41,541 nt of DNA from Methylomonas koyamae (GTDB lineage: Bacteria > Pseudomonadota > Gammaproteobacteria > Methylococcales > Methylomonadaceae). The DNA is taken from assembly GCF_001644025.1 (NCBI RefSeq), contig NZ_LUUK01000176.1:1-41541 (forward strand). Direction: 5' to 3'. The translations under genes were made by a program, and so were the position numbers. The notes under the pieces were generated by a model. The model saw nothing but the letters and a program-made list of their open reading frames with translations, was not told the DNA's origin and did not search any database. This document shows positions 11,488 to 31,166 of the stretch, piece after piece. How positions within the stretch are numbered: the stretch's first letter is position 1; each line of letters starts with the position of its first letter.

Positions 11488-14400
11488 ATGCCTGCCGCAC
11501 TGAAACTTATATTGGCGAATTTGACGGTGGCGCTGGCGTATTTCGTTGGCGGTTACCTGGGTGGCCTGCTAACGACGCCGCCCAACTACGCCAGCCCGGT
11601 GTGGCCGCCGGCCGGCATCGCCCTGGCCGTGACGCTGGTTTACGGCAAAACCATCCTGCCCGGATTGTTCCTCGGCGCTTTGGCCGCGCAGGTCCACGCC
11701 TTTTTAAACCCAACGCTATTCGAAGATAATCTGGCGCCATTGTGGTTGGGCGCTACCGCCGCGCTCGGCGCCTGTGGACAAGCCCTGCTGGGCGCTTTTT
11801 CGATCCGGCGCTGGCTAGGGCAATTCAATCCCTTGATGGATAGCCGGCACATCGTCAGTTTTTTTGCATTGGCCATCCTCAGTTGCCTGGTTTCCGCGAC
11901 GGTCGGCTGTACCTACTTGTTCAGCAGGGGATTGGTCGCGCCGGCCGATCTGGCCTTCAATTGGGGCGTTTGGTGGGTCGGCGATTCGATAGGCACGGTG
12001 ATTTTCACGCCGCTGTTGTTACCCTTCATTGCCGCGCCGCGCCACGTTTGGCGGCGTCGGCGGGTGTCGGTGGTGATGCCGCTCCTGGTATGCGTCGGTT
12101 TGGTCGCCGCCGCCTTCGAGTTTAACCGGCACCAAGAGATTCAACGTCTCCGGGATGGCTTCGGCAAGCAAACCGCATTGCTGAGCGCGACGCTGCGCCA
12201 ACACATCGCCGATCACCTGTCAGTCAACCGCACGTTGCGGGCGCTATTCGACAGCAACAAATTCATCGGCCGCGAGCAATTCAATGTGTTCGGCAAAGCG
12301 CTGCTCGAGGCGCATCCCGAGTTTTTAGCGCTGGAATGGTTGCCGCTGGTGCGCGCCGAAGATCGACTGGGTTTCGAAGGCCAGTATCGCCTAGATGTAC
12401 TCGAGTATTCCGCCGGCGGCTGGTTGGCCGCCGAACACCGCCCTTACTATTTTCCCCAACTCTATCGGGTCGGCGCCAGCCAGCCCGATGGCTTCGACGC
12501 CGCGAGCGAACCCGAGGCCGCCGCCGCGATTCTGGCGGCGGCGGGCAGCGGCGAATCGACATTGGCCCGCCGCGGAGATCGCGCTTGGGCGCTGTATACG
12601 CCGGTATACGCCAGCGGCGTCGGTCGGTCCGCGTCCGAACGCCGAGCCGGATTAATCGGTATGCTCGCCAGCGTGTTCACGTTGAGCGACGAAATCGCCC
12701 ATCCGCGCGCGCTACTACCGGACAGTCGGCTGGTTCTGGCGATCAAGGAGGGCGAGACTCCGCTATTCGACAATCAAACCCAGAACCGCTTCGACAGTCT
12801 GCATTTGCCTGCTTTCGAAAAACGAGAAACCATCGCTTTTGCGGACCGTCTTTGGACCTTGATTTATCGGCCGGCGCCAGAGTTCTATGCGCTTCAGCAC
12901 ACCTGGGACGCGCGTTGGCTGCTGCTTGGCGGCTTCGTGTTCTCGGCGTTGACCGCGTTCGGTCTGATGCTGATCACCGGCCGTACCGCCAGGGTAGAGG
13001 AACTGGTGGCGCTGAAGACCCGCGACCTGCTACGCAGCAATCAAGCCCTGAACATCGAGATCGAGCGGCGCAAGCAGCAGGAGAACGAACTGCGCGTCGC
13101 CGCGACGACGTTTCAGTCCCACGAGGCCATCCTGATTGCCGATCCCCACGGCGCCGTCGTTCGGGTAAACGACGCCTTTACGGATATTACCGGTTATCCG
13201 GCCGAGGAAATCGTCGGTCGCCATGCCAGGCTGTTATTGAGCGGCACGCCGGCGCGCAAGATTGGCCGCGGGATTGTTCGCGCCCTGACGGACAAGAACC
13301 AATGGCAAGGCGAGTTTTGGAGCCGACATAAGGACGGCAAGCCCTTCCCCGGCTGGCTGACTGTGACCGGCGTCCGCGACGACCAAAACCGCTTGTTGAA
13401 CTATGTGGCCATATTTTCGGACATCAGCGAACAAAAAGCCGCGGAACGGGAAATTCACGAGCTGGCGTTTTACGACCCGTTAACCGGCTTACCTAACCGC
13501 CGTTTGCTACTGGACAGGCTGAAACAAGAAATCGCCGCCGCCAAACGTCAGCAGACCTATGGCGCGCTATTTTTTCTGGATTTGGATCATTTCAAGCATT
13601 TGAACGATTCGCTCGGCCATAATGTCGGCGACGACTTGCTGACCCAGGTAGCTCGGCGCTTACGGAACATTATCCGCGAAGAAGATACCGCCTGCCGGCT
13701 GGGCGGGGACGAGTTCATCGTGATGGTGCCCGGCCGTTATCACTTGATGGAACAGGTCAGCGACCACGCCGCGATGCTGGCGGAAAAAATTCTGCAGACC
13801 ATCAATCAACCGTTTCAAGTCTTTGGGGGCGAGCACCATTTTTCGACCAGCATCGGCGTCACGCTATTTCCGGAAGCGACCGACCAACCCGAGGCGGTTA
13901 TCCAGCAAGCCGACACCGCGATGTACCGCGCCAAGGCCAACGGCCGCAACAGTATTAGCTTTTACCGGCCGTCGATGCAGCAGTCGGCCGATCGGCGCCT
14001 GACCTTGGAAAAGGAGTTGCGCCAAGCGTTGAAGTCCCACCAGTTTCTGTTGCATTACCAGCCCCAGGTCGATCACCTGGGCCGGGTGTTGAGCGTCGAG
14101 GCGTTGATTCGCTGGCAACATCCGGAAAAAGGCATGATTTCGCCGGCCGAATTCATACCGATCGCCGAGGAAACCCAGCTGATTCTGCCGATCGGCGAAT
14201 GGGTCATCGAAGAGGCTTGCCGGCAAATCCGCCGCTGGGATCAACAAGCCGTGCCGGTACGCCATATCGCGGTCAATGTCAGCTCCCGGCAATTCCGCCA
14301 TGCCGGCTTCGTCGCGCGCATTCGCCACATTCTGGCCGAAACCGGCATAGATGCCAGCCGCTTGGTCCTCGAATTGACCGAAGGTTGCGTCATCAGCGAC

Positions 14401-21094: not shown

Positions 21095-21148
21095 TTAAAT
21101 GGTGCCGGCAATAGGAATCGAACCTACGACCTTCGCGTTACGAGTGCG
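21095..21148 (-). repeat. Left attachment repeat (attL), orphan tRNA-Thr 3' fragment
   Basis: This is a 54-base exact copy of 31086-31139. It holds the last 49 bases of the tRNA, from the anticodon stem through the CCA, plus 5 to 6 bases beyond, and then diverges, so no full tRNA can be formed here. It is the duplicated core left by site-specific integration. Confidence 0.92.
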
Positions 21149-21260
21149 ATTGTTATAATAGTCGTCGGCAATCTACGGCAAGTATAAGTAATAAAAATCA
21201 ATACCTTATGCTCTAATTGCTGTCGAGTCTTGCCGAGAAAAAACGACATCTTTTACCGGC

Positions 21261-21281
21261 TAGTGGATCATCAGTGGATCA
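21261..21281 (+). repeat. Left arm-type repeat, tandem AGTGGATCA
   Basis: Two copies of AGTGGATCA separated by two bases. The same 21-base block recurs exactly at 31023-31043 near the other end and is absent elsewhere in the parts I inspected. Position (113 bases inside the left core) and symmetry suggest an integrase arm-binding site. It also overlaps the expected -35 of the int promoter. Confidence 0.6.
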
Positions 21282-21287
21282 TTGAAA

Positions 21288-21293
21288 TATAAT
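21288..21293 (+). promoter_or_regulatory. Putative -10 of the integrase promoter
   Basis: A perfect TATAAT 138 bases before the int ATG. A -35 at normal spacing would fall within the AGTGGATCA repeats (around 21265-21270), so integrase bound to its arm sites could repress its own gene. Confidence 0.45.
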
Positions 21294-21378
21294 CAAAGCC
21301 CACAAACAAAACGGGCCCGGCGGTGCTACCAACACCAACCAAGCCCTGACCGATTCACTTAACGCGACAGGTTAAGCA

Positions 21379-21447
21379 ATGGCTGAAAGTATCATACCAA
21401 AACGCCGGTTGCTATCCCACGAGGGCAGCTATGGCAAGCATCACTAA
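21379..21447 (+). CDS. Possible 22-residue leader ORF overlapping the integrase start
   Basis: ATG GCT GAA at 21379 opens a 22-codon frame (ESIIPKRRLLSHEGSYGKHH as its last residues) ending at TAA 21445-21447, seventeen bases inside the int gene in another frame. An inverted repeat CTTAAC/GTTAAG (21358-21376) sits immediately before it. Translation through this frame would carry ribosomes over the int start region, so it may tune integrase translation. It may equally be a chance frame; the ribosome-binding site (AGG at -10) is weak. Confidence 0.3.
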   Translation: MAESIIPKRRLLSHEGSYGKHH

Positions 21448-22546
21448 ACGCACCAGTGACGACGGCGACGTTTCCTATTTCGTCCGTGTTCGGCTTAAAG
21501 GTTACCCGTTACAAACTGCCACTTTCAAGCGCCTGACCGATGCCAAAAAATGGGCGGCATCCACCGAAAGCGCGATCAGGGAAGGCCGGCACTTCAAAAC
21601 CAACGAAGCCAAACGGCACACCTTGGCGGAAGCCATCGAACGCTATACCCGCGAAATCCTGCCGACCGAATTTACCAACGTCGAACAAAGCAACCGCCGG
21701 CCTATTTTGGAATGGTGGGCTTCACAGATCGGCCATTGTGTTATGGCGGACCTATCCACCGCCACCTTTGCCGACTGCCGCAACACCTTAGCAACCAGCG
21801 GCGGACGGAAGGGGCGGCCATTGGCGGCGGCCACCATCAAAAAGCATTTTGTGGTAGCCACCGACGTTTTAAAGCGGTGTGTTAATGAGTGGCATTGGCT
21901 GGAGCAATCCCCGTTAAAGGACGGCGGTATAAAGTTGCCCGAGCTGCCGCGCGGAATCGTTCGCTTTTTGGACGATGACGAACTTAACCGGCTGACAGCC
22001 GCTTGTAAGGAATCGCCAAACCCTTTGCTGTATCCGGCCTTTGTACTGGCTATCTCAACCGGGATGAGGCAAAGCGAAACCATGAACCTGTATTGGCGGG
22101 AACCGGAAACGCCACCCAGCGAAACCGCGTGGGGTGTGGTCAATCTGGCGGAATCCTGCATCATCTTACACGAAACGAAGAACGGCGACCGGCGGCGGGT
22201 GCCGTTGGCAAGCCAAGCCCTAGCCGAACTGCAAAAGCTCAACAAGATTAGGCGGCTTGATTCTGCGCTAGTCTTTCCCAGCCCCACCCACCCAAGCCAG
22301 CCGATTGAGCTTAAAAAAGCCTGGCTGAACGCCTTGAAACGGGCCGAGGTCAATAACTTTCGCTGGCATGATTTGAGGCATTGCACCGCGTCTTATCTGG
22401 CGATGGGCGGCGCTTCAATGGTCGAAATCGCGGCGGTACTGGGCCACAAAACCTTAGACATGGTGAAGCGATATAGCCACCTATCGGACGTTCACATAGC
22501 CAACGTGGTCGAACGGATGAATAGCAAACTGTTTGGGGGCGGATAA
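21431..22546 (+). CDS. int: Tyrosine recombinase/integrase
   Basis: This 371-residue site-specific recombinase mediates integration into and excision from the tRNA-Thr gene. The catalytic residues are all visible: R213 in STGMRQSE, the lysine in ETKNGDRRRVPL, H313-x-x-R316 in HDLRH, H339 in LGHKT and the nucleophile Y348 in VKRYSHL. The N-terminal 60 residues form the arm-binding region, and residues 65-165 are the SAM-like core-binding domain. The start follows GAGGGC. The stop overlaps the ATG of the next gene (TAATG), so the two are coupled. The gene points into the element from the end opposite the intact tRNA. Confidence 0.95.
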   Translation: MASITKRTSDDGDVSYFVRVRLKGYPLQTATFKRLTDAKKWAASTESAIREGRHFKTNEAKRHTLAEAIERYTREILPTEFTNVEQSNRRPILEWWASQIGHCVMADLSTATFADCRNTLATSGGRKGRPLAAATIKKHFVVATDVLKRCVNEWHWLEQSPLKDGGIKLPELPRGIVRFLDDDELNRLTAACKESPNPLLYPAFVLAISTGMRQSETMNLYWREPETPPSETAWGVVNLAESCIILHETKNGDRRRVPLASQALAELQKLNKIRRLDSALVFPSPTHPSQPIELKKAWLNALKRAEVNNFRWHDLRHCTASYLAMGGASMVEIAAVLGHKTLDMVKRYSHLSDVHIANVVERMNSKLFGGG

Positions 22547-23226
22547 TGGGCATAAATGACAAGTATTTGTCGTTTGAAGAGAGAGTTGAACGAGGCGAAA
22601 AACTCGATGAACATTTAAATCTGGTTCAAATTGCAACACTTTGGAGCGGCGACCATAAAGAACGAAAGAAGCTGATGAATATTATGCGTTGGGAATTTAT
22701 GGACGGGGCTTTAAAAGGCGTAGATATAACCGAACCAACTATCAAAATTGATGAAACATCAGACATGGCCACAAAAGCTTTTTGGGCGTTCGAAAAGCAA
22801 AAACTTGACCTACGTTTTTCCTGCTATAAGTTCGATCCTGATTACAGTTATTTAATTATTGAGGTTTCGAAAAACGACTTTTTATCTTGGCTTGAATCTA
22901 GCAATGAACCAAAACCTACCGGGTGTTTGTTGGAAAGATGGTGGAACGAAAACCGACCAAGCCACAAAACTATAAATACCTACGACAATGCAACAGATCA
23001 AGGCAGGCGGGATCGGCAAATAAAGGCTATCTGCGATAAGGCTAAACTTTTCGGCTATGACGTACTTAATATTCCAGAAGGCGGAAAGAAAGCAATAAGA
23101 ACAGAATGCTTAAAAATTGAAAATGGACTGTTCACGCCAGACGGATTTAAGAAGGCATGGTCACAAGCCAGCACTAGCGGAAAAATCAGCATGGCAAACA
23201 AAGAAAAATATCTTTCAAAACAATAG
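22546..23226 (+). CDS. Unknown element protein, translationally coupled to int
   Basis: I do not recognise this 226-residue soluble protein. Its start overlaps the int stop and has a GGGGGCGGA ribosome-binding tract. The sequence is charged (Lys and Glu rich), with WSGDHKERKKLMNIMRWEF near the N-terminus and a C-terminal part beginning DQGRRDRQIKAICDKAK that could be a short helical DNA-binding-like region, though that is weak. There are no transmembrane helices or signal. Base composition is clearly more AT-rich than the int and primase genes around it, which points to separate acquisition. It may be element cargo or a directionality accessory. A hairpin follows the stop. Confidence 0.7.
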   Translation: MGINDKYLSFEERVERGEKLDEHLNLVQIATLWSGDHKERKKLMNIMRWEFMDGALKGVDITEPTIKIDETSDMATKAFWAFEKQKLDLRFSCYKFDPDYSYLIIEVSKNDFLSWLESSNEPKPTGCLLERWWNENRPSHKTINTYDNATDQGRRDRQIKAICDKAKLFGYDVLNIPEGGKKAIRTECLKIENGLFTPDGFKKAWSQASTSGKISMANKEKYLSKQ

Positions 23227-23257
23227 TGGGCACAGTGGGCAGTAAAAAAAGCCCACA
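23226..23257 (+). terminator. Hairpin after the int-coupled gene
   Basis: GTGGGC and GCCCAC flank an A-rich loop (about 23235-23256) right after the stop at 23226. The T-run is missing on the plus strand, so it may be a weak or Rho-assisted terminator, or a structural element. Confidence 0.35.
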
Positions 23258-23261
23258 TGCC

Positions 23262-23280
23262 CTGTATTTACTGCATACAG
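23262..23280 (+). promoter_or_regulatory. Inverted repeat, possible operator of the replication operon
   Basis: CTGTAT and ATACAG are separated by 7 bases, about 80 bases before the first gene of the replication operon. A repressor-binding site is plausible. The spacing does not fit a LexA box (CTG-N10-CAG). Confidence 0.35.
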
Positions 23281-23361
23281 TCTAGGCATTTTCTAATTCA
23301 CCCCGAGCCACGCCGAAAGAGCGCGGCAAACCTTGTTTAATCACAACAAATAGGGGTGAAT

Positions 23362-23634
23362 ATGACGCCAAACAACCAAACCAACACAGCCACGGCAGCC
23401 GCTGCGACAACTCAAGGCGAAGCCGTACAATCCGCCCGGCTCTATCTGACCGTTCAGCAATTCAACCAAAAGCACCCAGCCTTTCCGGTTGGCACATTAC
23501 GCCACCAGATATTCAACGAGGAAACCAACGGCCTGAAAAAGTCCGGGGCCATTGTCCGCAATGGCCGACGGGTTTTAATCAATGAGCCTAAATACTTTGC
23601 GTGGCTGGAATCCCAAAACGAGAGGGCCGCGTAA
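23362..23634 (+). CDS. Small DNA-binding protein, excisionase/helix-turn-helix-like
   Basis: This 90-residue protein has the pattern YLTVQQFNQKHPAFPVGTLR followed by NGRRVLINEPKYFAWLESQ, resembling the short winged-helix proteins that precede primase genes in plasmid-like and P4-like elements. The first 25 residues are a Thr/Ala/Gln-rich tail. I chose the ATG at 23362 because AGGGG lies 5 bases before it; the in-frame GTG at 23356 has no such site. It opens an overlapping four-gene operon (TAATG junction to the next gene). It may act as excisionase, repressor or replication accessory. Confidence 0.65.
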   Translation: MTPNNQTNTATAAAATTQGEAVQSARLYLTVQQFNQKHPAFPVGTLRHQIFNEETNGLKKSGAIVRNGRRVLINEPKYFAWLESQNERAA

Positions 23635-23954
23635 TGAATCAGATCATCCCCGCCAACCCCGGATTCAACGCGCTAACGTTCTTCATTAACGAGGCCGGAA
23701 AGCCCAGCTATTACCGTGAGGCGGTCATTGCTTGGCAGTTGCGGATTGCTGCCGCCGCGTCTGGCGTTACCGATGCCGATCGAGCAGGCGAAAGGCTTTG
23801 CCATTGGGCGACGCCGATTTTGCCGGGTGGAATCGGTAGCTTTGACGAATGGGACGCTATCGAAGACCCTAACGGCACGATTAGCACCAGCGACAATACC
23901 TTTCGTAGTATCGGCGACTGTCTGGAGCATTGGGCCAAAGCGAGGCGCCAATGA
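23634..23954 (+). CDS. Unknown small protein of the replication operon
   Basis: This 106-residue protein starts at the ATG overlapping the upstream stop and ends overlapping the primase ATG, so it is firmly embedded in the operon. The sequence has YYREAVIAWQLRIAAAA and GGIGSFDEWDAI, acidic and Trp-rich, with no membrane segment or known motif. Genetic position between a DNA-binding protein and a primase suggests an accessory in replication or its control, but this is inferred from position alone. Confidence 0.65.
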   Translation: MNQIIPANPGFNALTFFINEAGKPSYYREAVIAWQLRIAAAASGVTDADRAGERLCHWATPILPGGIGSFDEWDAIEDPNGTISTSDNTFRSIGDCLEHWAKARRQ

Positions 23955-24892
23955 GTTTTCAGCACATCGAAGACGCCGCCCGCGCGGCGTTGGCCGACTG
24001 CGGCTTGGCTCCGCCCAAGCATTTTGCTTACGGCAAGTTTCTTGTTGTCGGCGAAATTGACGGCAAACCAGGCGACAACGCCGGCCGGGTAAAAGTCTTC
24101 ACCGATGGCCTTGGCGGGTTTGTGCAGAACTGGCGCACCGGCGAAAAGCGGTCGTTTTTTCTGAATGCTGCCGGCGCCGATAGTCAGTTGTCGGAGGCCG
24201 AGCGCCAGCGTATCGACCGCGAGCGCAAACGCCGCCAGGCCGAGGAAATGGCGCGGATGGACCGGGCCGCCAAGCGTGCCGTGTCCATCTGGCAAGTGGC
24301 CGCACCGGCGCCGGCCGAGCATCCTTATCTGGTCGCCAAGCACATCCAGCCGCATTGCGCCCGTGTAGCAACCTGGCGGCGGGTTATCGATAACGAAGGC
24401 GCTAAGCAAACGGTATCGATCGAGAACGCGCTACTGGTGTCCATGATCGACGCAGCCGGCACCATTCGCAGTTTGCAGGCCATATTCCCCACCAATCATC
24501 CGTTGTTCGGCAATCGCAACAAAGACTTTTTGCCGGGCGGCGGCTTGGCCGGTCTGTTCGGTTTCATTGGGCGACGCACTGATAAGGTGCTGATTGCCGA
24601 GGGTTTCGCTACCGGCGCCACCCTGCACGAAGAAACCGGCTTGCGTGTTTACCTGGCGTTTACGGCCAACAATCTGTTGGCGGTCGGCCGGATCGTGCGA
24701 GACAAGCTACCGAATGTCGAGATTGTGTTTGCCGCCGACAACGATACCGAAACCGTCGGCAATCCTGGTCTGACCAAAGCCACCGAGGCGGCGACAGCCG
24801 TCGGCGGTTCGGTCATGGTGCCGCCGATTCCGGATAGCGACTTCAATGACTACGCCGCTTATCTGCGACAAGGCGGCGGCCATGTCGGATAA
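23951..24892 (+). CDS. Toprim-domain primase
   Basis: This 313-residue protein has an N-terminal DUF/primase-like region (GRVKVFTDGLGGFVQNWRTGE), a charged helical linker (about residues 75-110) and a C-terminal Toprim domain. The catalytic glutamate is E217 in VLIAEGFATGA, and the metal-binding pair is D263-x-D265 in FAADNDTE; the domain ends PDSDFNDYAAYL. No N-terminal zinc finger is visible. Such proteins make RNA primers for phage, plasmid and satellite replication. The start overlaps the previous stop (ATGA) and the stop lies 11 bases inside the helicase gene, so both proteins should be made in coupled fashion. Confidence 0.88.
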   Translation: MSFQHIEDAARAALADCGLAPPKHFAYGKFLVVGEIDGKPGDNAGRVKVFTDGLGGFVQNWRTGEKRSFFLNAAGADSQLSEAERQRIDRERKRRQAEEMARMDRAAKRAVSIWQVAAPAPAEHPYLVAKHIQPHCARVATWRRVIDNEGAKQTVSIENALLVSMIDAAGTIRSLQAIFPTNHPLFGNRNKDFLPGGGLAGLFGFIGRRTDKVLIAEGFATGATLHEETGLRVYLAFTANNLLAVGRIVRDKLPNVEIVFAADNDTETVGNPGLTKATEAATAVGGSVMVPPIPDSDFNDYAAYLRQGGGHVG

Positions 24893-26855
24893 GTCAAAAA
24901 CGCCGCCCATTCTGGAAGTTGTTGACGGCGCCAAAAAGCCCAAGCCTACAGCCAAAAAGCCGACCGGCAACGGTGGCGGCGGTCATGGTAGCGGCAGCGG
25001 CAAAGATGGCCGCTTTGGCGCCTATCGGGTCAATAACGGTGCGTTTTATCAAACCAAGACCAAAGATGACGGCTTCGACGAATGGCCGTTGTGCGACTTC
25101 ACGTGCAAGATCGTCGAGGAAGTCACCGCCGAAGACGGCTTGAACGACGCCAGTTTCATCCGGATCGAGGGCCGGCGCCGCGACGGTTTGCCGTTGCCGT
25201 TGGTCGATGTACCGGCCAAGTCGTTTTTCAGCAATCAAGGCAACTGGATCAACGAAGCGTGGGGCAGCCGCGCGTTTGTCTATCCTGGCCAGTCGAAAAA
25301 AGACAATCTGCGTGCCTGCGTTCACCTGTATTCGACCTTGAACGGCGACATTCCGCGCCGCGTGGTTTACAAGTTCATCGGCTGGAAGTGTCTGGACGGC
25401 GCCTGGCATTACCTGCACGGCGGCGGCGCGATTGGTTCTGCCGGGCCGGTCGATGGGATTCAAGTCGATTTAGGGCCGGGCCACATGTCGCGCTATCAAT
25501 TGCCGGCGCCGTTGGCCGGCGATGCCTTAAAGCACGCGGCAGCAGACGCCTTGCAATTGCTGGACGTGGCGCCGTCGCGGCCGCAAGTCGGCGCGGCCTT
25601 ACTGGCCGCCGTGGCGCGGGCGCCGCTGGGCGAAACTCATTGCACCGACTTTGCGTTGTGGCTGCACGGCTTAACCGGCTCTCGCAAATCGGCGGTTGCC
25701 GCCATTGCCTTGGCGTTCTTCGGCGACTTCACCGCCCGCAACTTTCCGGCGAATTGGGCGGATTCGGTCAACGACGTGGAAGCCAAGGCCCACCAAGCCA
25801 AGGATGGCGTGTTTGTGGTCGATGACTTCAAACCGTCGGTCAATCGCGTGGAGGCCGAGAAACAGCACGCAATGGCCGAAAGGCTGGTACGCGGCACCGG
25901 CAACCAAAGCGGCCGGGGACGGCGTACCGCCAACATGCAGGCGCAAGCGGCGCCGTTTAACCGCTCCATGATGATCGTCACCGCCGAGGATTTGCCGCGC
26001 GGTGCGTCGTTGCTGGGCCGGTTGCTGGTTCTGGAAATCGGCCGGGATGACGTGAACAACGCGACCTTGACCAGACTACAGGAAGCCGCCCGCGCCGGCC
26101 GCTTCGCCGGCTTGATGGCCGCCTACCTGCAATGGCTGGCGCCGCGAATCGATCAATTCAAGGCGGAGCTACCGGCCGCCGTCGAACAATTCCGCAACGC
26201 CGCCCAGCGCGACGGCTTCGCCAGCAGCCACCCAAGGGCCGGCGACATTTACGGCAATCTGTTGGCCGGCGCCGAAACCTTTTTGGAATTTTTGCAGGAC
26301 GCCGGCGCCGTCAGCAGCGAACAAAGCGACCTGTTGTTGATCGACCTGGAAACCAACCTGCAAGCCGCATTCAAAGAGCAAGGCGCTTACCAATCGGAAC
26401 AGGACGAAGTGGAGCGTTTCCTTAATCTACTGCGGGCGGCGTTCATTGCCGGCGATTGCCACATAGCCAACCGCCTGGATCAAGGGCCGCCGAAGTCTAG
26501 GCCGCATGCTTGGGGCTGGCGCGAGAACGGTACCGATATTAGCGGGGAAAGACTCTACAACCCGCAAGGCGATTGTTGTGGCTGGCATGTAGACGGCAGC
26601 ACCAACCCGCCGGCCGAAGTGTGGCTGGAACCCAATACCGCGTTCAAGATCGTGCAGGAATTCTCCCGGCGCCAGGGCGATGCCTTCTTATTGTCCGCTG
26701 CATCGTTGTGGCGTCGCATGGTCGAACGTGGCTTATTCCTCAAGGTCGAGCCAGATAGCAAGACCGGGCGAGTCAAGACGACAGTTAAGCGTACGGTCGC
26801 CGGGCGTTCGGTGCGGGTGTTGGTTTTGTCGGCTGAATTAGTGGAGTCCGGTTAA
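24882..26855 (+). CDS. DUF927-domain replicative helicase
   Basis: This 657-residue protein starts at the ATG at 24882 inside the primase end. After a Lys/Pro/Gly-rich linker (residues 1-50) comes a domain of the DUF927 type, with an ATPase core: Walker A GLTGSRKS at 263-270 and Walker B VFVVDD at 310-315. A basic stretch (GNQSGRGRRTANMQAQ) follows. The C-terminal 100 residues look like a winged-helix region (AASLWRRMVERGLFLK). Related proteins act as hexameric helicases on satellite and phage origins. Pairing with a separate Toprim primase reproduces in two chains what the P4 alpha protein does in one. The origin-like repeats start 100 bases downstream. Confidence 0.85.
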   Translation: MSDKSKTPPILEVVDGAKKPKPTAKKPTGNGGGGHGSGSGKDGRFGAYRVNNGAFYQTKTKDDGFDEWPLCDFTCKIVEEVTAEDGLNDASFIRIEGRRRDGLPLPLVDVPAKSFFSNQGNWINEAWGSRAFVYPGQSKKDNLRACVHLYSTLNGDIPRRVVYKFIGWKCLDGAWHYLHGGGAIGSAGPVDGIQVDLGPGHMSRYQLPAPLAGDALKHAAADALQLLDVAPSRPQVGAALLAAVARAPLGETHCTDFALWLHGLTGSRKSAVAAIALAFFGDFTARNFPANWADSVNDVEAKAHQAKDGVFVVDDFKPSVNRVEAEKQHAMAERLVRGTGNQSGRGRRTANMQAQAAPFNRSMMIVTAEDLPRGASLLGRLLVLEIGRDDVNNATLTRLQEAARAGRFAGLMAAYLQWLAPRIDQFKAELPAAVEQFRNAAQRDGFASSHPRAGDIYGNLLAGAETFLEFLQDAGAVSSEQSDLLLIDLETNLQAAFKEQGAYQSEQDEVERFLNLLRAAFIAGDCHIANRLDQGPPKSRPHAWGWRENGTDISGERLYNPQGDCCGWHVDGSTNPPAEVWLEPNTAFKIVQEFSRRQGDAFLLSAASLWRRMVERGLFLKVEPDSKTGRVKTTVKRTVAGRSVRVLVLSAELVESG

Positions 26856-26954
26856 TCCCCCTTCCCCTAGTCGATGACGCCATAGGGTGGCTGGTGGCCG
26901 TGTCGTATGGTCGATCAACAAGCCAAGCCGGCAAAACCGACTAAGGGGGTATAG

Positions 26955-27246
26955 GTAAAAAACTGGGGGAATTGGGGGAGATATAGCTATAAGCCTTATG
27001 TACCAAGGCTTTCAGGCTCCCCCAATTTTTTGAACGTTGGGGGAGATTCCCCCAAAATTGGGGGAGCAACGCCGAGTTGCATGGTTTGGTATCGGTCGCC
27101 GCCAGCGCGTCAAATCGACCAAACTCCCCCAGACTCCCCCGATAAATTGGGGGAGTTCCCCCGTTTTTCGAAGGTGTGGGGGAGCTTGCAAGCCGCGCCG
27201 GCCGTGGCCTGGAGGGCTATCTCCCCCAATTCCCCCAATTTTTTAC
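26955..27246. repeat. GGGGGA repeat cluster bounded by a 29-bp inverted repeat
   Basis: Thirteen perfect GGGGGA motifs occur in 272 bases: six on the plus strand (starting at 26965, 26974, 27039, 27060, 27149 and 27178) and seven on the minus strand (C-runs starting at 27019, 27049, 27126, 27136, 27158, 27223 and 27232). All have exactly five G. The outer boundaries, 26955-26983 and 27218-27246, are inverted copies differing at one base. An internal palindromic group lies at 27018-27065. There is no credible gene across this stretch. Spacing and density suggest initiator or primase binding sites (iterons), possibly foldable as single strands. Confidence 0.85.
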
Positions 27247-27302
27247 ATAAGGTATAGGGCAGTTATATTTTTATCGAGTTGCCCGGTCGACGTACCACCG
27301 CC

Positions 27303-27352
27303 GGGGGGGGCGGGTTAAAAGTCCACTGACTCTAGCCCCTTTGCGTCGCCCC
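27303..27352 (+). repeat. Direct repeat, copy 1
   Basis: An eight-G run, then CGGGTTAAAAGTC, a variable part, and CTTTGCGTCGCCCC. It matches copy 2 at 27452-27502 in both conserved blocks, 149 bases further on. Confidence 0.7.
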
Positions 27353-27442
27353 TTTCTTGTTCATGCGGATCGGAAAATAGATAGGAAAAGCCCCTTGGCT
27401 TGAATGGTCAACGATTGCCAGGACCATGCACAGCATTGGGTA

Positions 27443-27643
27443 TTATCCACAGGGGGGGGCGGGTAAAAAGTCTAGCAAGTGGGCCGGCCTTTGCGTCGCC
27501 CCAGCTAAATTTTCGCTGGAAGCATTTTTGCAGATCCAAAAAGCCACATAATTTGTTGATAAGTAACGTAAAACTACCCAATCCTGTGGATAACTTGCAT
27601 CGTTCGAGCGTCCCGCGTTGCCAACCTTCGCGGGTTATCCACC
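27443..27643. promoter_or_regulatory. Cluster of DnaA-box-like sites
   Basis: TTATCCACA on the plus strand at 27443-27451 and on the minus strand at 27585-27593 both match the consensus TTATNCACA exactly. One-mismatch sites are TTATCAACA on the minus strand at 27554-27562 and TTATCCACC on the plus strand at 27635-27643. Four sites in 200 bases suggest recruitment of host DnaA. Confidence 0.65.
27452..27502 (+). repeat. Direct repeat, copy 2
   Basis: Second copy of the block at 27303-27352 (eight-G run, CGGGTAAAAAGTC, then CTTTGCGTCGCCCC). It abuts a DnaA-box-like site at 27443-27451. Confidence 0.7.
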
Positions 27644-27947
27644 CGCCCGGAACCACGCCCGAAACCGCCGCCCACCCCGTGGCGTATATGATCGGGGCCA
27701 GGGGAGGTTGTGTTGTATTCAGGATCGGCACCAGCCCCACCAGCGCCGCTCTGGCCGACGGATCGGCACCAGAAAGCCCCCGGCCTTCGCCGCCACCCAC
27801 ATGGCGTAACCGTTGCGGGCACGGGGGAGCATAAAACAGCTATTGACACCGCCAGCCGATCACGCCCACAATGGCCGCGCCAGTCCGCAGACTGGCCGGG
27901 CGTGGAAACCCGTTTGATTGCATCGGCGAGAATCGCCACTTTAGCCA

Positions 27948-28352
27948 GTGGCTTTTTTATGCCCAAAATTCAGCGCGGCATTGCCGCGTCTTCATTATGG
28001 CGGGCTTGTTTGGGCGGTCTTTGGACCGGCCGCACCGATGCGCGGTATTTCCACCCCTTGCAAGCCCGTCGCCAATGCCGTGGAAAGCATGGCGACGGTT
28101 TATCTATTCAGTATCGGAGAAACCACCATGCCCAGCGCATCCAATCCCGCTCGAATCGAGCAACAACAAACCCTTACTCGCCCCTTACACTTGGCCTTTG
28201 CCAATCTGGCGTTCAGCTACGGCAACACCATCAAGGAAGCCGAACGCGGCGACCTGACCGGCTCGGCGTTGGTCGGCCTACAAAGTGACTGCGAAGAGCT
28301 GCTGGCGCTGTCCTTATCGCTACGCGGCCAATTGCGGGAGGTGCAGCCATGA
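27948..28352 (+). CDS. Phage P4 Ash-like region ending in a small unknown protein
   Basis: The frame opens at GTG 27948 right after a stop. Its first half ([17 protein letters not shown], then [13 protein letters not shown] and [10 protein letters not shown]) looks to me like the Ash protein family of phage P4 and related elements, recalled from memory and not checked. A second, better start inside it is the ATG at 28128, preceded by GGAGA, which gives a 74-residue protein ([16 protein letters not shown], then helical, Leu and Glu rich). This could be an independent gene, with the upstream part being a leader or an RNA. Its stop overlaps the radC ATG. Several other frames are open across 27710-28290, so conservation may be at the nucleic acid level. 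Confidence 0.45.
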
Positions 28353-28873
28353 GACCATCAACCAACAAGCCGGCACCGTTAAAACTGCCGTATTTCGTCG
28401 CCGACGCGGCCGGCAAATACCGCACCCGCCGAGCACTGACCGAAGAGCAAATCATCAAGGCGGCTTCGGTACTGCTAAACAAGGCTGTTTTTAGGGAATC
28501 AGCCATAACTAGCCCGGACATTACCCGCGCCTATCTCAAAGCCCGATTGCGTGGCCTGGAGCATGAAGTATTCGTTTGCTTGTACCTGGACAACCAAAAC
28601 CGGGCGATTGAGTGCGAAGAGCTTTTTAGAGGCACGATAGACGGCGCGGCGGTCTATCCGCGCGAAGTGGCGAAGCGATGCCTACAGCTTAACGCGGCGG
28701 CGGTCATATTCGCCCACAACCACCCGAGCGGCATTAAAGAACCAAGCTCGGCGGATCGAGCAATAACCAAAAAACTTAAAGAATGTTTGGACCTGTTCGA
28801 TATTCGCACCCTTGACCACTTCATCATTGGCGACGGGGAGCCGCTATCGTTTGCCGAGTGCGGCTGGATTTGA
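28349..28873 (+). CDS. radC: RadC-like JAB/MPN-domain protein
   Basis: This 174-residue protein contains only the metalloprotease-like MPN+ core of the RadC family. The JAMM motif is complete: H123-N-H125-P-S-G followed by S133 and D136, in [18 protein letters not shown]. The N-terminal helix-hairpin-helix domain of chromosomal RadC is missing, as is usual for the many short RadC copies on mobile elements. The start overlaps the previous stop and has a GGGAGGTG ribosome-binding site. The function is uncertain; a DNA-repair role for the family is not well supported. Confidence 0.85.
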
Positions 28874-28885
28874 TCGAACCCAGGC

Positions 28886-28927
28886 GCAAAAAAGCCGGCT
28901 GGCCTTCGCAGGCCGCCGGCTTCTGTT
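28886..28927. terminator. Bidirectional terminator between radC and the serine recombinase
   Basis: A hairpin with GCCGGC and GCCGGC arms (about 28892-28921) has an A-run on the left and a T-run on the right, so it can serve both converging genes. Confidence 0.7.
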
Positions 28928-28942
28928 TTGCCCGATGGTCGT

Positions 28943-29500
28943 CTATGCCGCCAACAGCTTGTACAACGTCGGCCGGCTAATACCGTAAGCCTTAGCCACC
29001 GCGCTTTTCTCTTCGCCGGCTTCGATCCTGGCTTTAATCTCTGCGGCCTGGTCAGCGGTCATTTTGGCCGGCGCCCCAAGCTTCCGGCCTTGGGCTTTGG
29101 CGGCTTCGATGCCCTCCCGTTGGCGTTCTTTAATCAAGGTCCGCTCGAATTCGGCGAACGCGCCCAGCATTTGCAACATCAGCGTTTGCATCGGCGACGC
29201 GGCGGACGCTTCGAAGGTTAGATGTTCTTTGTAAAACTTCACCGATACGCCTTTGCCGGTCAGTTGCTCGATGATGTTTTGCAGGTCTTTCAGGTTGCGC
29301 GCCATGCGATCGATGGAATGCACGTGCAGCACGTCGCCGTCGCGCACGTGGTTAAGGCAGTTTGCCAACTCGGGGCGGTTGGTATCCTTGCCGCTGACTT
29401 TCTCAGTGAAGACCCGATCAAGCGCCACGTCCGCCAATTGGCGTTCGGTGTTTTGAGAGACCGAGCTAACCCGAATGTATCCGACGTTTTGACCTTTCAT
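28943..29500 (-). CDS. Serine recombinase (resolvase/invertase family)
   Basis: This 185-residue Pin/Hin-type recombinase has the nucleophile S12 in GYIRVSS, the IDRMARNLKDL motif with the catalytic arginines, the dimer helix and helix E (FAEFERTLIKERQREGI), and a C-terminal helix-turn-helix (SAVAKAYGISRPTLYKLL). I start it at the ATG at 29500, which is preceded by GGGTGG; an in-frame GTG three codons upstream is the alternative. On a replicating circular element it could resolve multimers or invert DNA; no invertible segment was found. The upstream repeat region would be its probable target. Confidence 0.92.
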   Translation of the reverse strand: MKGQNVGYIRVSSVSQNTERQLADVALDRVFTEKVSGKDTNRPELANCLNHVRDGDVLHVHSIDRMARNLKDLQNIIEQLTGKGVSVKFYKEHLTFEASAASPMQTLMLQMLGAFAEFERTLIKERQREGIEAAKAQGRKLGAPAKMTADQAAEIKARIEAGEEKSAVAKAYGISRPTLYKLLAA

Positions 29501-29512
29501 AGCTGCCACCCT

Positions 29513-29620
29513 GTGTAAATAAATTATTTAGGGATAGCTTAACACTTGTAAATAAAATGTCAAATCAAGATTACTTTACACGGTGGAATGCAGGTTCGCG
29601 GGCATGGTCGAGAGTGTAAA
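29513..29620. repeat. Repeat-rich region, possible recombinase (res) site
   Basis: A perfect palindrome TAAATAA-A-TTATTTA occupies 29516-29530. GTGTAAA-type heptamers lie at 29513, 29546 (TTGTAAA), 29574-29581 (reverse strand) and 29614. Position directly upstream of the recombinase gene is where resolvases normally bind. The remainder of the 29510-29856 gap is AT-rich and holds no gene. Confidence 0.4.
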
Positions 29621-29790
29621 AGAATGTATACTTTATTTGCATTGTTGCCGGCCACCGATCCAACACCGTTATCGGTTCTACTTGAAATCAGGAGCGCATA
29701 TCTAATATAAGCGCTTCATATCCAATTGATTTTATGGTAAAAAATCTTCCAAAAATACAATAAAAAACATAAAAACACAATATGTAGTGT

Positions 29791-29818
29791 TTGCCAATCA
29801 GTTATCACCATATATTTA
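29791..29818 (+). promoter_or_regulatory. Putative promoter for the two-gene cargo
   Basis: TTGCCA (29791-29796) and TATTTA (29813-29818) are separated by 16 bases, with about 38 bases to the first ATG. The surrounding DNA is strongly AT-rich. Confidence 0.45.
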
Positions 29819-29856
29819 GTTTTGGAAAAATCAGGCTTTAGTATCAGGAGGCTAAC

Positions 29857-30066
29857 ATGACTAATTTCGCGGAACAGTTCCAAATTTTCAATCTGCCAAC
29901 AACCGCGCCGCATGACTATAAAAGCGCAGAGCAATACGCAGCATCATTTAAGCGCTGTTCAATTCAGAGAAATGAGAGGGTTACCTATTCGTCTGATACA
30001 ACATGCTTAACTAACAAAGAAACATCAACTATCAACACATCATTTCAGAACGTAGAGCGCAATTAA
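29857..30066 (+). CDS. Unknown 69-residue protein upstream of the SDH-type protease
   Basis: A perfect AGGAGG lies before the ATG, so this small gene is almost certainly translated. The protein (AEQFQIFNLPTTAP near the start, then Ser/Thr/Asn-rich) has no membrane segment and no motif I know. It ends 12 bases before the protease gene, which lacks a good ribosome-binding site of its own, so the second gene probably depends on translation of this one. A small partner, inhibitor or substrate of the protease is one possibility, from position only. The composition is AT-rich, unlike the rest of the element. Confidence 0.65.
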   Translation: MTNFAEQFQIFNLPTTAPHDYKSAEQYAASFKRCSIQRNERVTYSSDTTCLTNKETSTINTSFQNVERN

Positions 30067-30078
30067 AAAATTCTATCT

Positions 30079-30960
30079 ATGCCCAATTGGAATCAGGTAT
30101 TGAGGGAGGTATCAGCCAGCCCTCTAGACAACGCCCGCCGCAAATACTTGCAAGAGCTAAGTGACAGAACATCTAGAAACATCATTTGCTACTACTCCGG
30201 ATGGCTCCAAAAACCAAACTCTTACAATGCATCGATTCATGACGACGATAAGAATGGGCTAATGGCTGCGGTTCATGGACTGGATAGAAGCAAGGGCCTT
30301 GACCTAGTTCTCCATACACCCGGGGGCGATCTAGCTGCCACCGAATCGATCGTGAACTATTTACGAAGCATGTTCGGTACAAACATTAGAGCAATCATTC
30401 CGCAAATTGCAATGTCGGCAGGCACGATGATCGCATGTAGCGCGAAAGAAATTTTAATGGGCAAACAATCAAACATTGGCCCGATTGACCCCCAATTTGG
30501 CGGCATTCCAGCTCATGGAGTTATTGAGGAATTCAATAAAGCTGTCGAGGAAGTCAAGAAAGACCCAGGATCGATACCAATTTGGCAAACAGTGGTGCAA
30601 AAATACCATCCAACGTTTTTAGGTGAATGCGAAAAAGCAATAAAACTTTCATCTGAAATGGTTACAAATTGGTTGGTTACGGGTATGTTCGAAAACGACT
30701 CAGCAGCCCAGCAGAAGGCTGGTGCTATCGTCGATGCCTTAAACAATCACGAAGACACAAAGACACATGCGAGGCATATCCATATCGAGCAAGCAATTAG
30801 GCTTGGGTTAAAAATAGTTCCCTTAGAAGAAGATCAGGATCTCCAAGACTTAACCCTGACAGTTCATCACGCTTATATGCACACCTTGGCGAACTCAGCC
30901 GCGATAAAGATTATTGAAAACCATAAAGGCAACGCCATCATCCAAAATCTAGCAAATTAA
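30079..30960 (+). CDS. SDH-type Clp-fold serine protease
   Basis: This 293-residue protein belongs to the serine dehydrogenase proteinase (SDH_sah) group of the ClpP/crotonase superfamily. It has an HTPGGDL oxyanion loop (H79-T80-P81-G82-G83), the likely nucleophile S113 in QIAMSAGTMIA, and the family segment GKQSNIGPIDPQFGG. There is no signal peptide or transmembrane helix, so it should act in the cytosol. The substrate is unknown. Relatives turn up next to mobile genes and are suspected in some cases of roles in defence, which is conjecture here. It is the last gene before the tRNA end, the usual cargo position. The DNA is AT-rich compared with the replication genes. Confidence 0.8.
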   Translation: MPNWNQVLREVSASPLDNARRKYLQELSDRTSRNIICYYSGWLQKPNSYNASIHDDDKNGLMAAVHGLDRSKGLDLVLHTPGGDLAATESIVNYLRSMFGTNIRAIIPQIAMSAGTMIACSAKEILMGKQSNIGPIDPQFGGIPAHGVIEEFNKAVEEVKKDPGSIPIWQTVVQKYHPTFLGECEKAIKLSSEMVTNWLVTGMFENDSAAQQKAGAIVDALNNHEDTKTHARHIHIEQAIRLGLKIVPLEEDQDLQDLTLTVHHAYMHTLANSAAIKIIENHKGNAIIQNLAN

Positions 30961-30980
30961 ATCTCTTTATTCGGGGTATT

Positions 30981-31019
30981 AAAAGCCGGTGCCGGCAAGC
31001 GGTAGCCGGCTTTTTTTGT
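30981..31019 (+). terminator. Rho-independent terminator after the protease gene
   Basis: AAAGCCGG and CCGGCTTT arms are followed by a run of T. It lies 20 bases after the stop and just before the right arm-type repeat. Confidence 0.8.
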
Positions 31020-31022
31020 TTT

Positions 31023-31043
31023 TAGTGGATCATCAGTGGATCA
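31023..31043 (+). repeat. Right arm-type repeat, tandem AGTGGATCA
   Basis: Exact 21-base copy of 21261-21281, in the same orientation, 42 bases inside the right attachment core. After excision the two copies would flank the joined core in attP, as expected for integrase arm sites. Confidence 0.6.
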
Positions 31044-31085
31044 CTGGCTTGGGTATAATACCAAGAATTGTTGTAACCACTTGAT

Positions 31086-31139
31086 TTAAATGGTGCCGGC
31101 AATAGGAATCGAACCTACGACCTTCGCGTTACGAGTGCG
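31086..31139 (-). repeat. Right attachment repeat (attR)
   Basis: Copy of 21095-21148. Here it forms the 3' part of the intact tRNA-Thr gene, so integration leaves the tRNA functional. Confidence 0.92.
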
Positions 31140-31166
31140 CTGCTCTACCTGCTGAGCTATGCCGGC
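31091..31166 (-). tRNA. thrW: tRNA-Thr (CGT anticodon), integration target
   Basis: Read on the minus strand, a complete 76-base cloverleaf starts GCCGGCA and ends TGCCGGC-A-CCA, with CCA encoded. The seven-pair acceptor stem is perfect, the T-loop is TTCGATT and the anticodon loop is CTCGTAA, giving anticodon CGT for ACG codons. The same tRNA type (thrW) is a known integration site for enterobacterial elements. It lies 10 bases downstream of hisI. Confidence 0.95.

Follow-up and report, generated by a model that had tools for sequence, protein, structure and literature searches.

A probable cos-type phage satellite integrated in a tRNA-Thr gene of the methanotroph Methylomonas koyamae

We report a small integrated element of Methylomonas koyamae that is, in our assessment, very probably a cos-type phage satellite of this methanotroph. 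The element comprises 10,045 bp (positions 21095-31139) of a 41,541-nucleotide stretch of contig NZ_LUUK01000176.1, referred to below as the window, in a genome of 5.4 Mb and 235 contigs; it is integrated in a tRNA-Thr(CGT) gene and bounded by 54-bp exact repeats of the 3' part of that gene. A sequence-only reading of the same DNA had described a phage satellite or a plasmid-like element, needing a helper to move. The satellite half of that description has gained from packaging-type sites, a C4 antisense RNA and relatives that carry head or tail genes, and the plasmid-like half now applies at most to the element's replication. The satellite reading is the better supported because a cos-like site shared with the junction of the HNH and TerS genes of phage loci, the C4 RNA, a helicase with the fold of SCCmec Cch and SaPI Rep, and the head or tail genes of relatives all point towards it.

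The candidate packaging site

When the elements were compared by blastn with phage loci from the genus, positions 12082-12179 of one such locus (G030:C325) matched non-coding DNA in the window and in several elements. In the phage locus this stretch is placed at the junction of the HNH gene, which ends at 12103 and whose last 23 bp it overlaps, and the TerS gene, which starts at 12199. The genes of this locus were confirmed with PHROGs and include, besides HNH and TerS, those for TerL (3e-178), portal, protease, major head protein, tape measure and tail assembly protein. The window holds two copies of the site, each of about 100 bp, on the forward strand downstream of the helicase gene (27302-27396 and 27451-27548), and positions 27454-27505 match the phage locus L188 at a blastn E-value of 1.6e-5. 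A search of a phage collection with the L188 site returned only a 33-bp match at chance level (E 4). Eleven copies of the site align over 113 columns, 39 of them invariant. Given its position between HNH and TerS, where a cos would be looked for, the shared site is a candidate cos site.

A sequence-only model of the site (R1) was built from these 11 copies, including both window sites and that of L188, so that the R1 scores of the window copies (67.6 bits, E 3.9e-18 for copy 1; 85.1 bits, E 1.3e-23 for copy 2) and of L188 hold by construction. A strict pattern of the site occurs at 16 places in 9 of the 37 genomes of the genus, with none in the reversed control; the model finds 24 sites in 15 of the same genomes and, under stricter filters, 44 sites in 26 of the 311 genomes of the order. 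According to gene maps, three of these 44 immediately precede the TerS gene of phage loci that also encode TerL; the other 41 lie, as judged by eye from the maps, in satellite-type elements or remnants. All labels of satellite, remnant and phage locus were read by eye from the maps of a simple home-made gene caller; G242:C50 was taken to be L089, which has the same coordinates, and G005:C96, which ends near its R1 site, was called a remnant from synteny with G035.

The reverse test started from the six TerL loci in the 311 order genomes, on which R1 was run with its filters off. Four of the six have an R1 match at the HNH-TerS junction at E<=5e-4: L188 (9e-25), which is in the training set, and L205 (2.9e-7), L208 (7.7e-6) and L210 (5e-4), which are absent from it. 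Among the 78 named loci recruited with the helicase, seven have a match at E<=0.05, all of them in Methylococcaceae and all downstream of the helicase. The site is found with different replicases, namely the primase-helicase of the window, a primase-polymerase-like protein of 742-744 aa (L184-L187), a pair of 138 and 512 aa (L196) and a 732-aa protein (L056), and it is therefore unlikely to be the origin of one replicase.

Antisense RNA, replication genes and proposed life cycle

The C4 antisense RNA lies at 27993-28076 on the forward strand and exceeds the gathering score of RF01695 (61.1 against 45 bits, E 3.7e-10; minimum free energy -41.2, z -3.63). The model matches 42 places, 41 of them above the cut-off, in 21 of the 37 genus genomes, whereas 14 control genomes gave no match; by hand count, C4 is found within 5 kb of 16 of the 19 helicases of the genus. 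In phage P1, whose layout is icd-ant, words complementary to the RNA stand both before and after it. The same arrangement was found in every one of the 38 loci submitted to a word test, which are those of the 42 C4 places that lie in fetched loci: at least one 7-nt word of each RNA has complements both upstream and downstream, against a mean of 0.12 and a maximum of 1 of 38 in 50 mononucleotide shuffles of the flanks, a control that keeps base composition only. At least two such words, of 6 nt or longer, are listed for 29 of the 38 loci. Their usual positions are around -90/-76 and +3/+35, and they vary from locus to locus.

In the window, the b' word alone, UUUCCAC, passes the exact test, having its complement GTGGAAA at both 27902 and 28080 (targets b1, 27902-27908, and b2, 28080-28086). 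The a' word, CCGAUGC, faces GCATCGG at 27920 (target a1, 27919-27926) and, with one wobble, GTATCGG at 28111 (target a2, 28111-28117), so that complementarity places the forward-strand targets at 27902-27926 and 28080-28117. The first pair falls in an isrK-like leader RNA (27879-27958, forward strand; RF01394). Target a2 overlaps the Shine-Dalgarno-like GGAG (28116-28119) of a forward-strand open reading frame (ORF) of 74 aa at 28128-28352, which belongs to cluster C11, has homologues in relatives and is the presumed target of C4 control. A hand count that has no chance control gives all-different word pairs in 10 of the 11 genomes with at least two examined C4 loci; in G021, two near-identical elements have the same pair. 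As an observation in its own right, satellites and prophages that reside in one genome differ in their words as if these formed a two-word code: G034 holds the satellite L039 together with a tailed prophage region (L165, L191; G034:C1, about 2,306-2,343 kb) that has its own C4 with different words.

The replication module consists of a Toprim primase (23951-24892; PF13362, 4.6e-8; phrog_2249, 1e-56, scanned from 23930) and a replicative helicase (24882-26855), both on the forward strand. The helicase had earlier been called a DUF927 protein, of which the helicase part stands and the DUF927 part finds no Pfam support in the window protein, for which there is no Pfam match at E<=0.1, none to DUF927 at E<=1 and none in NCBIfam; DUF927 (PF06048) is matched by 2 of 17 homologues, at best with E 0.014. 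PDB sequences offered no convincing match (best E 0.013, to choline-binding-type repeats), and the fold was therefore used for the assignment. The AlphaFold2 model, with a mean pLDDT of 84.0, matches in Foldseek SCCmec Cch (5dgk, 3.8e-14), which we take to be DUF927-related, and SaPIbov1 Rep (8tch, 5.3e-13), and more weakly RavA and NrS-1 (1.6e-5 to 5e-4), the SaPI5 primase-helicase (7ola, 2.3e-3) and D5-type helicases; as modelled, the protein folds like Cch and SaPIbov1 Rep. We also note weak relatives of the helicase, at about 25-31% identity, that are annotated as 'telomere-binding protein' on Rhodococcus plasmids.

Directly 3' of the helicase gene there is a G-rich inverted-repeat region of 300 bp (26945-27255; DNA fold z -10.39; 32-nt arms 94% complementary). 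This region is likely the origin, by analogy with the phage-inducible chromosomal islands (PICIs), in which ori follows rep (PMC6092414). The G-rich repeats are not general among the 15 elements compared, with 6-8 of each motif in the window, L049, L050 and L030 and 0-2 in the rest. A DnaA-box-like TTATCCACA is found at 27443-27451 on the forward strand, with a second, reversed, at 27585-27593.

These parts suggest the following cycle. In the resident state the C4 RNA, cut from its own leader, would pair with a2 and b2 and keep the operon of the 74-aa ORF and radC off. On helper infection or induction, the integrase and a small excisionase would excise the element at the 54-bp core, the primase and helicase would replicate it from the G-rich hairpin region, and the small serine recombinase would resolve multimers. 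With the cos-like sites as recognition sequences, the HNH, TerS and TerL proteins of the helper would then package the element into helper particles, which would be unaltered ones, as no head or tail gene is recognised in the window copy.

Ends, gene content and relatives

The 54-bp exact duplication that the sequence-only reading had seen at the two ends is borne out, positions 21095-21148 being identical to 31086-31139. The repeat covers the last 49 bp of the tRNA and runs 5 bp beyond it, and the tRNA gene (31091-31166, reverse strand; the sole tRNA found by ARAGORN) is thus intact at the right end, where it contains the right attachment repeat. A longer match of 69 bp, at 93%, encloses the exact repeat. 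We take an exact match of 54 bp inside a tRNA to be far beyond chance. Relatives with the same ends, which that reading had proposed to look for, exist: L028, L030, L044 and L051, all satellite-type, have the same integrase type and both 54-bp-like ends at tRNA-Thr. A single core copy is present in each of the 10 further tRNA-Thr loci (L059-L068; stretches of 4-5 kb), though L060, with a distant integrase-like match beside the tRNA, need not be an empty site. Given these four further elements with both ends, against a single core in 10 other loci, the repeats at the element's ends are not ordinary tRNA duplication, the possibility against which the earlier reading had set its own interpretation.

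Inside each end lie short direct repeats on the forward strand, AGTGGATCA twice at the left (21261-21284, a 96% match to 31023-31046) and again paired AGTGGATCA at the right (31023-31046), which look like integrase arm sites. Short direct repeats common to both ends were found in 11 of the 12 elements at tRNA-Thr or tRNA-Arg (there are none in L049), at near-constant offsets of about 164-187 bp from the start of the left attachment site and 102-118 bp from the end of the right one, and their words differ from element to element.

The gene set is as the earlier reading gave it, from integrase, ORF of unknown function, Toprim primase and helicase through repeats, RadC and serine recombinase to an AT-rich pair. 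The 10 main window proteins were scanned against Pfam, PHROGs and NCBIfam at E<=0.1, and also with PADLOC. Within this scope no capsid, portal, major-head or terminase gene was recognised, and the match of the recombinase helix-turn-helix to phrog_2538 (terminase small subunit; E 0.086) is at chance level; nor was any relaxase or coupling-protein family found in these general scans, no search for an oriT having been made. The statement that the element is without transfer or capsid genes thus agrees with the scans of the window copy, but it had missed the cis-acting packaging-type site. PADLOC gave two weak matches only (AriB, 0.018; a helix-turn-helix, 0.0089).

The element opens on the forward strand with a tyrosine integrase of the tRNA-Thr type (21431-22546; PF00589, 5.6e-24), which is 89-93% identical in L028, L030 and L044. 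The next ORF (22546-23226), of unknown function and common to some relatives (43% over residues 107-226 in L040), matches nothing in Pfam, PHROGs or NCBIfam at E<=0.1 and has only the AriB match in PADLOC. It is followed by a small AlpA/excisionase-like ORF (23362-23634; phrog_9668 excisionase, E 0.033) and by a small ORF of unknown function (23634-23954), for which the frame scanned from 23601 gave no family. A DNA-binding protein had been listed in this part of the element; a small ORF is indeed present and may bind DNA. In the alignment of the 23362-23634 ORF, AlpA is matched by 1 of 11 members (0.0027) and DUF6462 by 3 of 11, and neither by the window protein. Downstream of the 74-aa ORF there is a RadC-like JAB protein (28349-28873, forward strand; PF04002, 1.6e-44) and, on the reverse strand, the small serine recombinase of the resolvase/invertase type (28943-29509; PF00239, 2.2e-38). 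DNA at 28947-29633, or most of this stretch, is kept at 72-91% in many relatives. Two side observations belong here: the recombinase and its upstream DNA (28943-29633) border variable cargo and might drive cargo exchange at a res site, and L002 (G000:C215:3725-4221) is a second radC stretch, with 92% DNA identity to that of the element, on a 7-kb contig and possibly a piece of another satellite.

The right part of the element, in AT-rich DNA, encodes on the forward strand a 69-aa ORF (29857-30066), with no family at E<=0.1 in Pfam, PHROGs, NCBIfam or PADLOC, and an SDH-type ClpP-like serine protease (30079-30960; PF01972, 3.5e-22; phrog_11747, 6.7e-108). The pair is probably cargo. At E<=1e-20 the protease is found in one of the 37 genus genomes, that of the window. 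It matches the head-protease family phrog_53 at 3.4e-10, far below its own family, and has homologues in seven phage records, including a Mu-like Shewanella phage, where the gene stands between the late regulator and lysozyme, and Porphyromonas phages, in one of which it stands between the portal/adaptor and neck genes, near HicAB. The small ORF of the window shows no similarity to those that precede the phage homologues. A role of the pair as a morphogenesis module is conceivable but unsupported, the best PHROG of the protease being an unassigned family.

A single-protein scan of genome contigs found nothing, and a query with an alignment then gave 78 loci. The helicase is matched in 20 of 61 genomes; outside Methylomonas the close relatives are from Methylococcaceae, and more distant members of the helicase family, at about 26-41% identity, are found in Planctomycetota, Chloroflexi and Actinobacteria. 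Several genomes hold bounded relatives, some 8-13 kb long, whose attachment ends match. In a genome of the same species, G061, the Thr site is occupied by a different element (L051), and a primase-helicase block of the window type, at 94-98% protein identity, lies beside tRNA-Arg(CCT) and tRNA-Leu(CAA), an arrangement that speaks for mobility and by which integrase, replicase and cargo appear to be exchanged. We also observed that L050 and L049 of this genome have near-identical replication blocks with different tRNAs and integrases, and that in both the match to radC ends after 39 residues. A search of IMG/VR with the resolvase gave one contig, L182, with ORFs judged by eye to be portal- and capsid-like.

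Head or tail genes were recognised in 6 of the 25 family elements mapped: a tape measure in L027 and L085, a head protease in L036, a head protease with a major head protein in L039, and tail assembly protein I (TipI) in L025 and L026, the last counted through a TipI homologue at 69%. The starting set for these figures, from which core clusters and insertion-sequence genes had been removed, was 172 accessory proteins with a length of at least 60 aa; of their 103 representatives, 10 were picked by eye, and these alone were run against PHROGs. In a further set, L183-L187, an integrase is accompanied by genes that by eye resemble toxin-antitoxin genes, by a 165-aa ORF and by homologues of the protease and major head protein of L039; the 742-744-aa replicase of L184-L187 is split in L185, a tape-measure homologue is present in L183, L184 and L186, and a TipI homologue in L185. 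These are satellites with part of a capsid module. A capsid and packaging set of the cfPICI type was not recognised in the window, and no terminase or portal was noted in the maps of L039 and L183-L187.

Alternative explanations and known systems

Several results weigh against a cos-type satellite. Of the TerL loci, L212 has an R1 match of only 6.7 bits (E 0.56), L211, whose contig ends near TerS, has none, L210 escaped the search of the order under filters and came up only once these were off, and some of the six are on short contigs and are not shown to be complete prophages. The site is present at E<=0.01 in only 8 of the 19 genus elements with a window-type helicase (hand count); the other 11 lack it or may use another. 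Scans of IMG/VR with the helicase alignment and with the site pattern gave no match, and no helper with this TerL or this site was found in the host genome or its same-species neighbour. The excisionase assignment of the 23362-23634 ORF is weak, and the Rfam models c4-a1b1 and isrK, which match upstream of C4, both stay below their gathering scores (32.7 bits against 50 for isrK).

Three other explanations were weighed with these points in view. That the roughly 100-bp site is a replication or regulatory site, and that the element moves rarely or by generalised transduction, would suit the DnaA-box-like TTATCCACA abutting copy 2 and the 11 relatives without the site; a site that occurs with different replicases and sits at the short HNH-TerS junction of phage loci makes this very improbable. 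We give equally little credence to a plasmid-like integrative element mobilised by conjugation, with a helper relaxase acting on an unseen oriT. The Toprim primase does have distant relatives on 3,515 plasmid records, 3,101 of them typed conjugative and all below 60% identity, and a small serine recombinase and DnaA-box-like sites are present, but the scans described above found no relaxase or coupling protein, the shared non-coding site is that of a phage HNH-TerS junction, and C4 is a phage-type regulator.

A decayed prophage that has lost its structural genes would also account for the phage-type RNA, the cos-like site and an SDH gene that is found in phages as well. Against such a remnant stand the open frames for integrase, primase, helicase, RadC and recombinase, the bounded relatives with matching ends, and the fact that the helicase is accompanied by C4 in 16 of 19 relatives and by the site in 8 of 19, associations that independent remnants would hardly keep; of the explanations considered, this is one to which we attach scarcely any probability. 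A cos-type satellite is the reading that we carry into the comparison with known systems.

No described satellite family was found that matches the element gene for gene, and the earlier reading was fair in naming none. By analogy, the element would work like the Gram-negative PICIs and P4, and by gene content it is not P4. The Gram-negative PICIs EcCICFT073 and PmCI172 (PMC6092414) likewise place the integrase first, followed by primase and Rep and then the origin region; the PICI order of int, regulator/xis, pri, rep and ori compares with integrase, small ORFs, primase, helicase and repeat region (the presumed origin) here, though the PICI AlpA (or MerR) regulator has as its counterpart only the weak AlpA match noted above. 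EcCICFT073 has a phage-type cos in two copies, both reported functional, and offers a precedent for cos-dependent packing into helper particles; PICIs are around 15 kb, the same order of size as the element, in whose window copy no structural genes were recognised. PmCI172 has a homologue of the major capsid protein, to which the isolated head or tail genes of some relatives may be compared, and Gram-positive PICIs are described with a divergent regulator pair, whereas the element runs from integrase to helicase on one strand. Unlike the Gram-negative PICIs, the element has a C4 antisense RNA, RadC with a resolvase, and a helicase of the Cch/Rep fold that has no Pfam match.

P4 uses a short immunity RNA, CI, and combines primase and helicase in one alpha protein; the element differs in having separate primase and helicase and C4 instead of CI, and no family of the P4 hallmarks psu, sid and delta is among the Pfam or PHROGs matches at E<=0.1. 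Like P4, which has the cos of its helper (PMC6092414), it is a small integrated replicon, with a candidate cos. SaPIbov5 is a cos-packaged island whose Ccm is a distant homologue of the helper's major capsid protein (PMC5052747), and is comparable with the element, whose packaging we infer from sequence, and with the major capsid proteins of L039 and L183-L187; the helicase fold is matched by SaPIbov1 Rep. Unlike SaPIbov5, the element has a Gram-negative host, no Stl-type repressor recognised in the scans and no capsid gene in the window copy. Packaging of PICMI seems to depend on a DNA motif only (PMC11389934), as would that of the element, which differs, by description and not by sequence comparison, in its own primase and helicase and its C4 RNA. 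P1 and P7 share with the element the covariance-model match to RF01695 and the words pairing before and after the RNA; here C4 would control the small ORF-radC operon and not icd-ant. On c4 RNA and Ant, see PMC8546580.

Most of what is known of phage satellites comes from enterics, staphylococci and vibrios, and in an open-access library we found no paper naming satellites in Methylomonas or a satellite with a C4 RNA. We propose, tentatively and as a possibility short of probable, that the Methylococcaceae hold an undescribed modular superfamily of satellites that swap integrases, replicases of four or more kinds, a common cos site and isolated genes for tape measure, TipI, head protease or major head protein. 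Silencing would depend on a C4 code made up of two words of 7 nt each; most satellites and prophages of one cell would differ in this code, and immunity groups would follow from RNA pairing and nothing else. Helper-dependent satellites are likely in methane oxidisers, and the cos-type site would serve as a sequence tag with which satellites can be paired with their helpers in silico. The relatives form a natural collection whose members seem to have acquired head or tail genes singly and of different kinds. Finally, the C4 loci suggest an RNA immunity code, so that a pair of 7-nt words might tell if two elements are able to live in the same cell.

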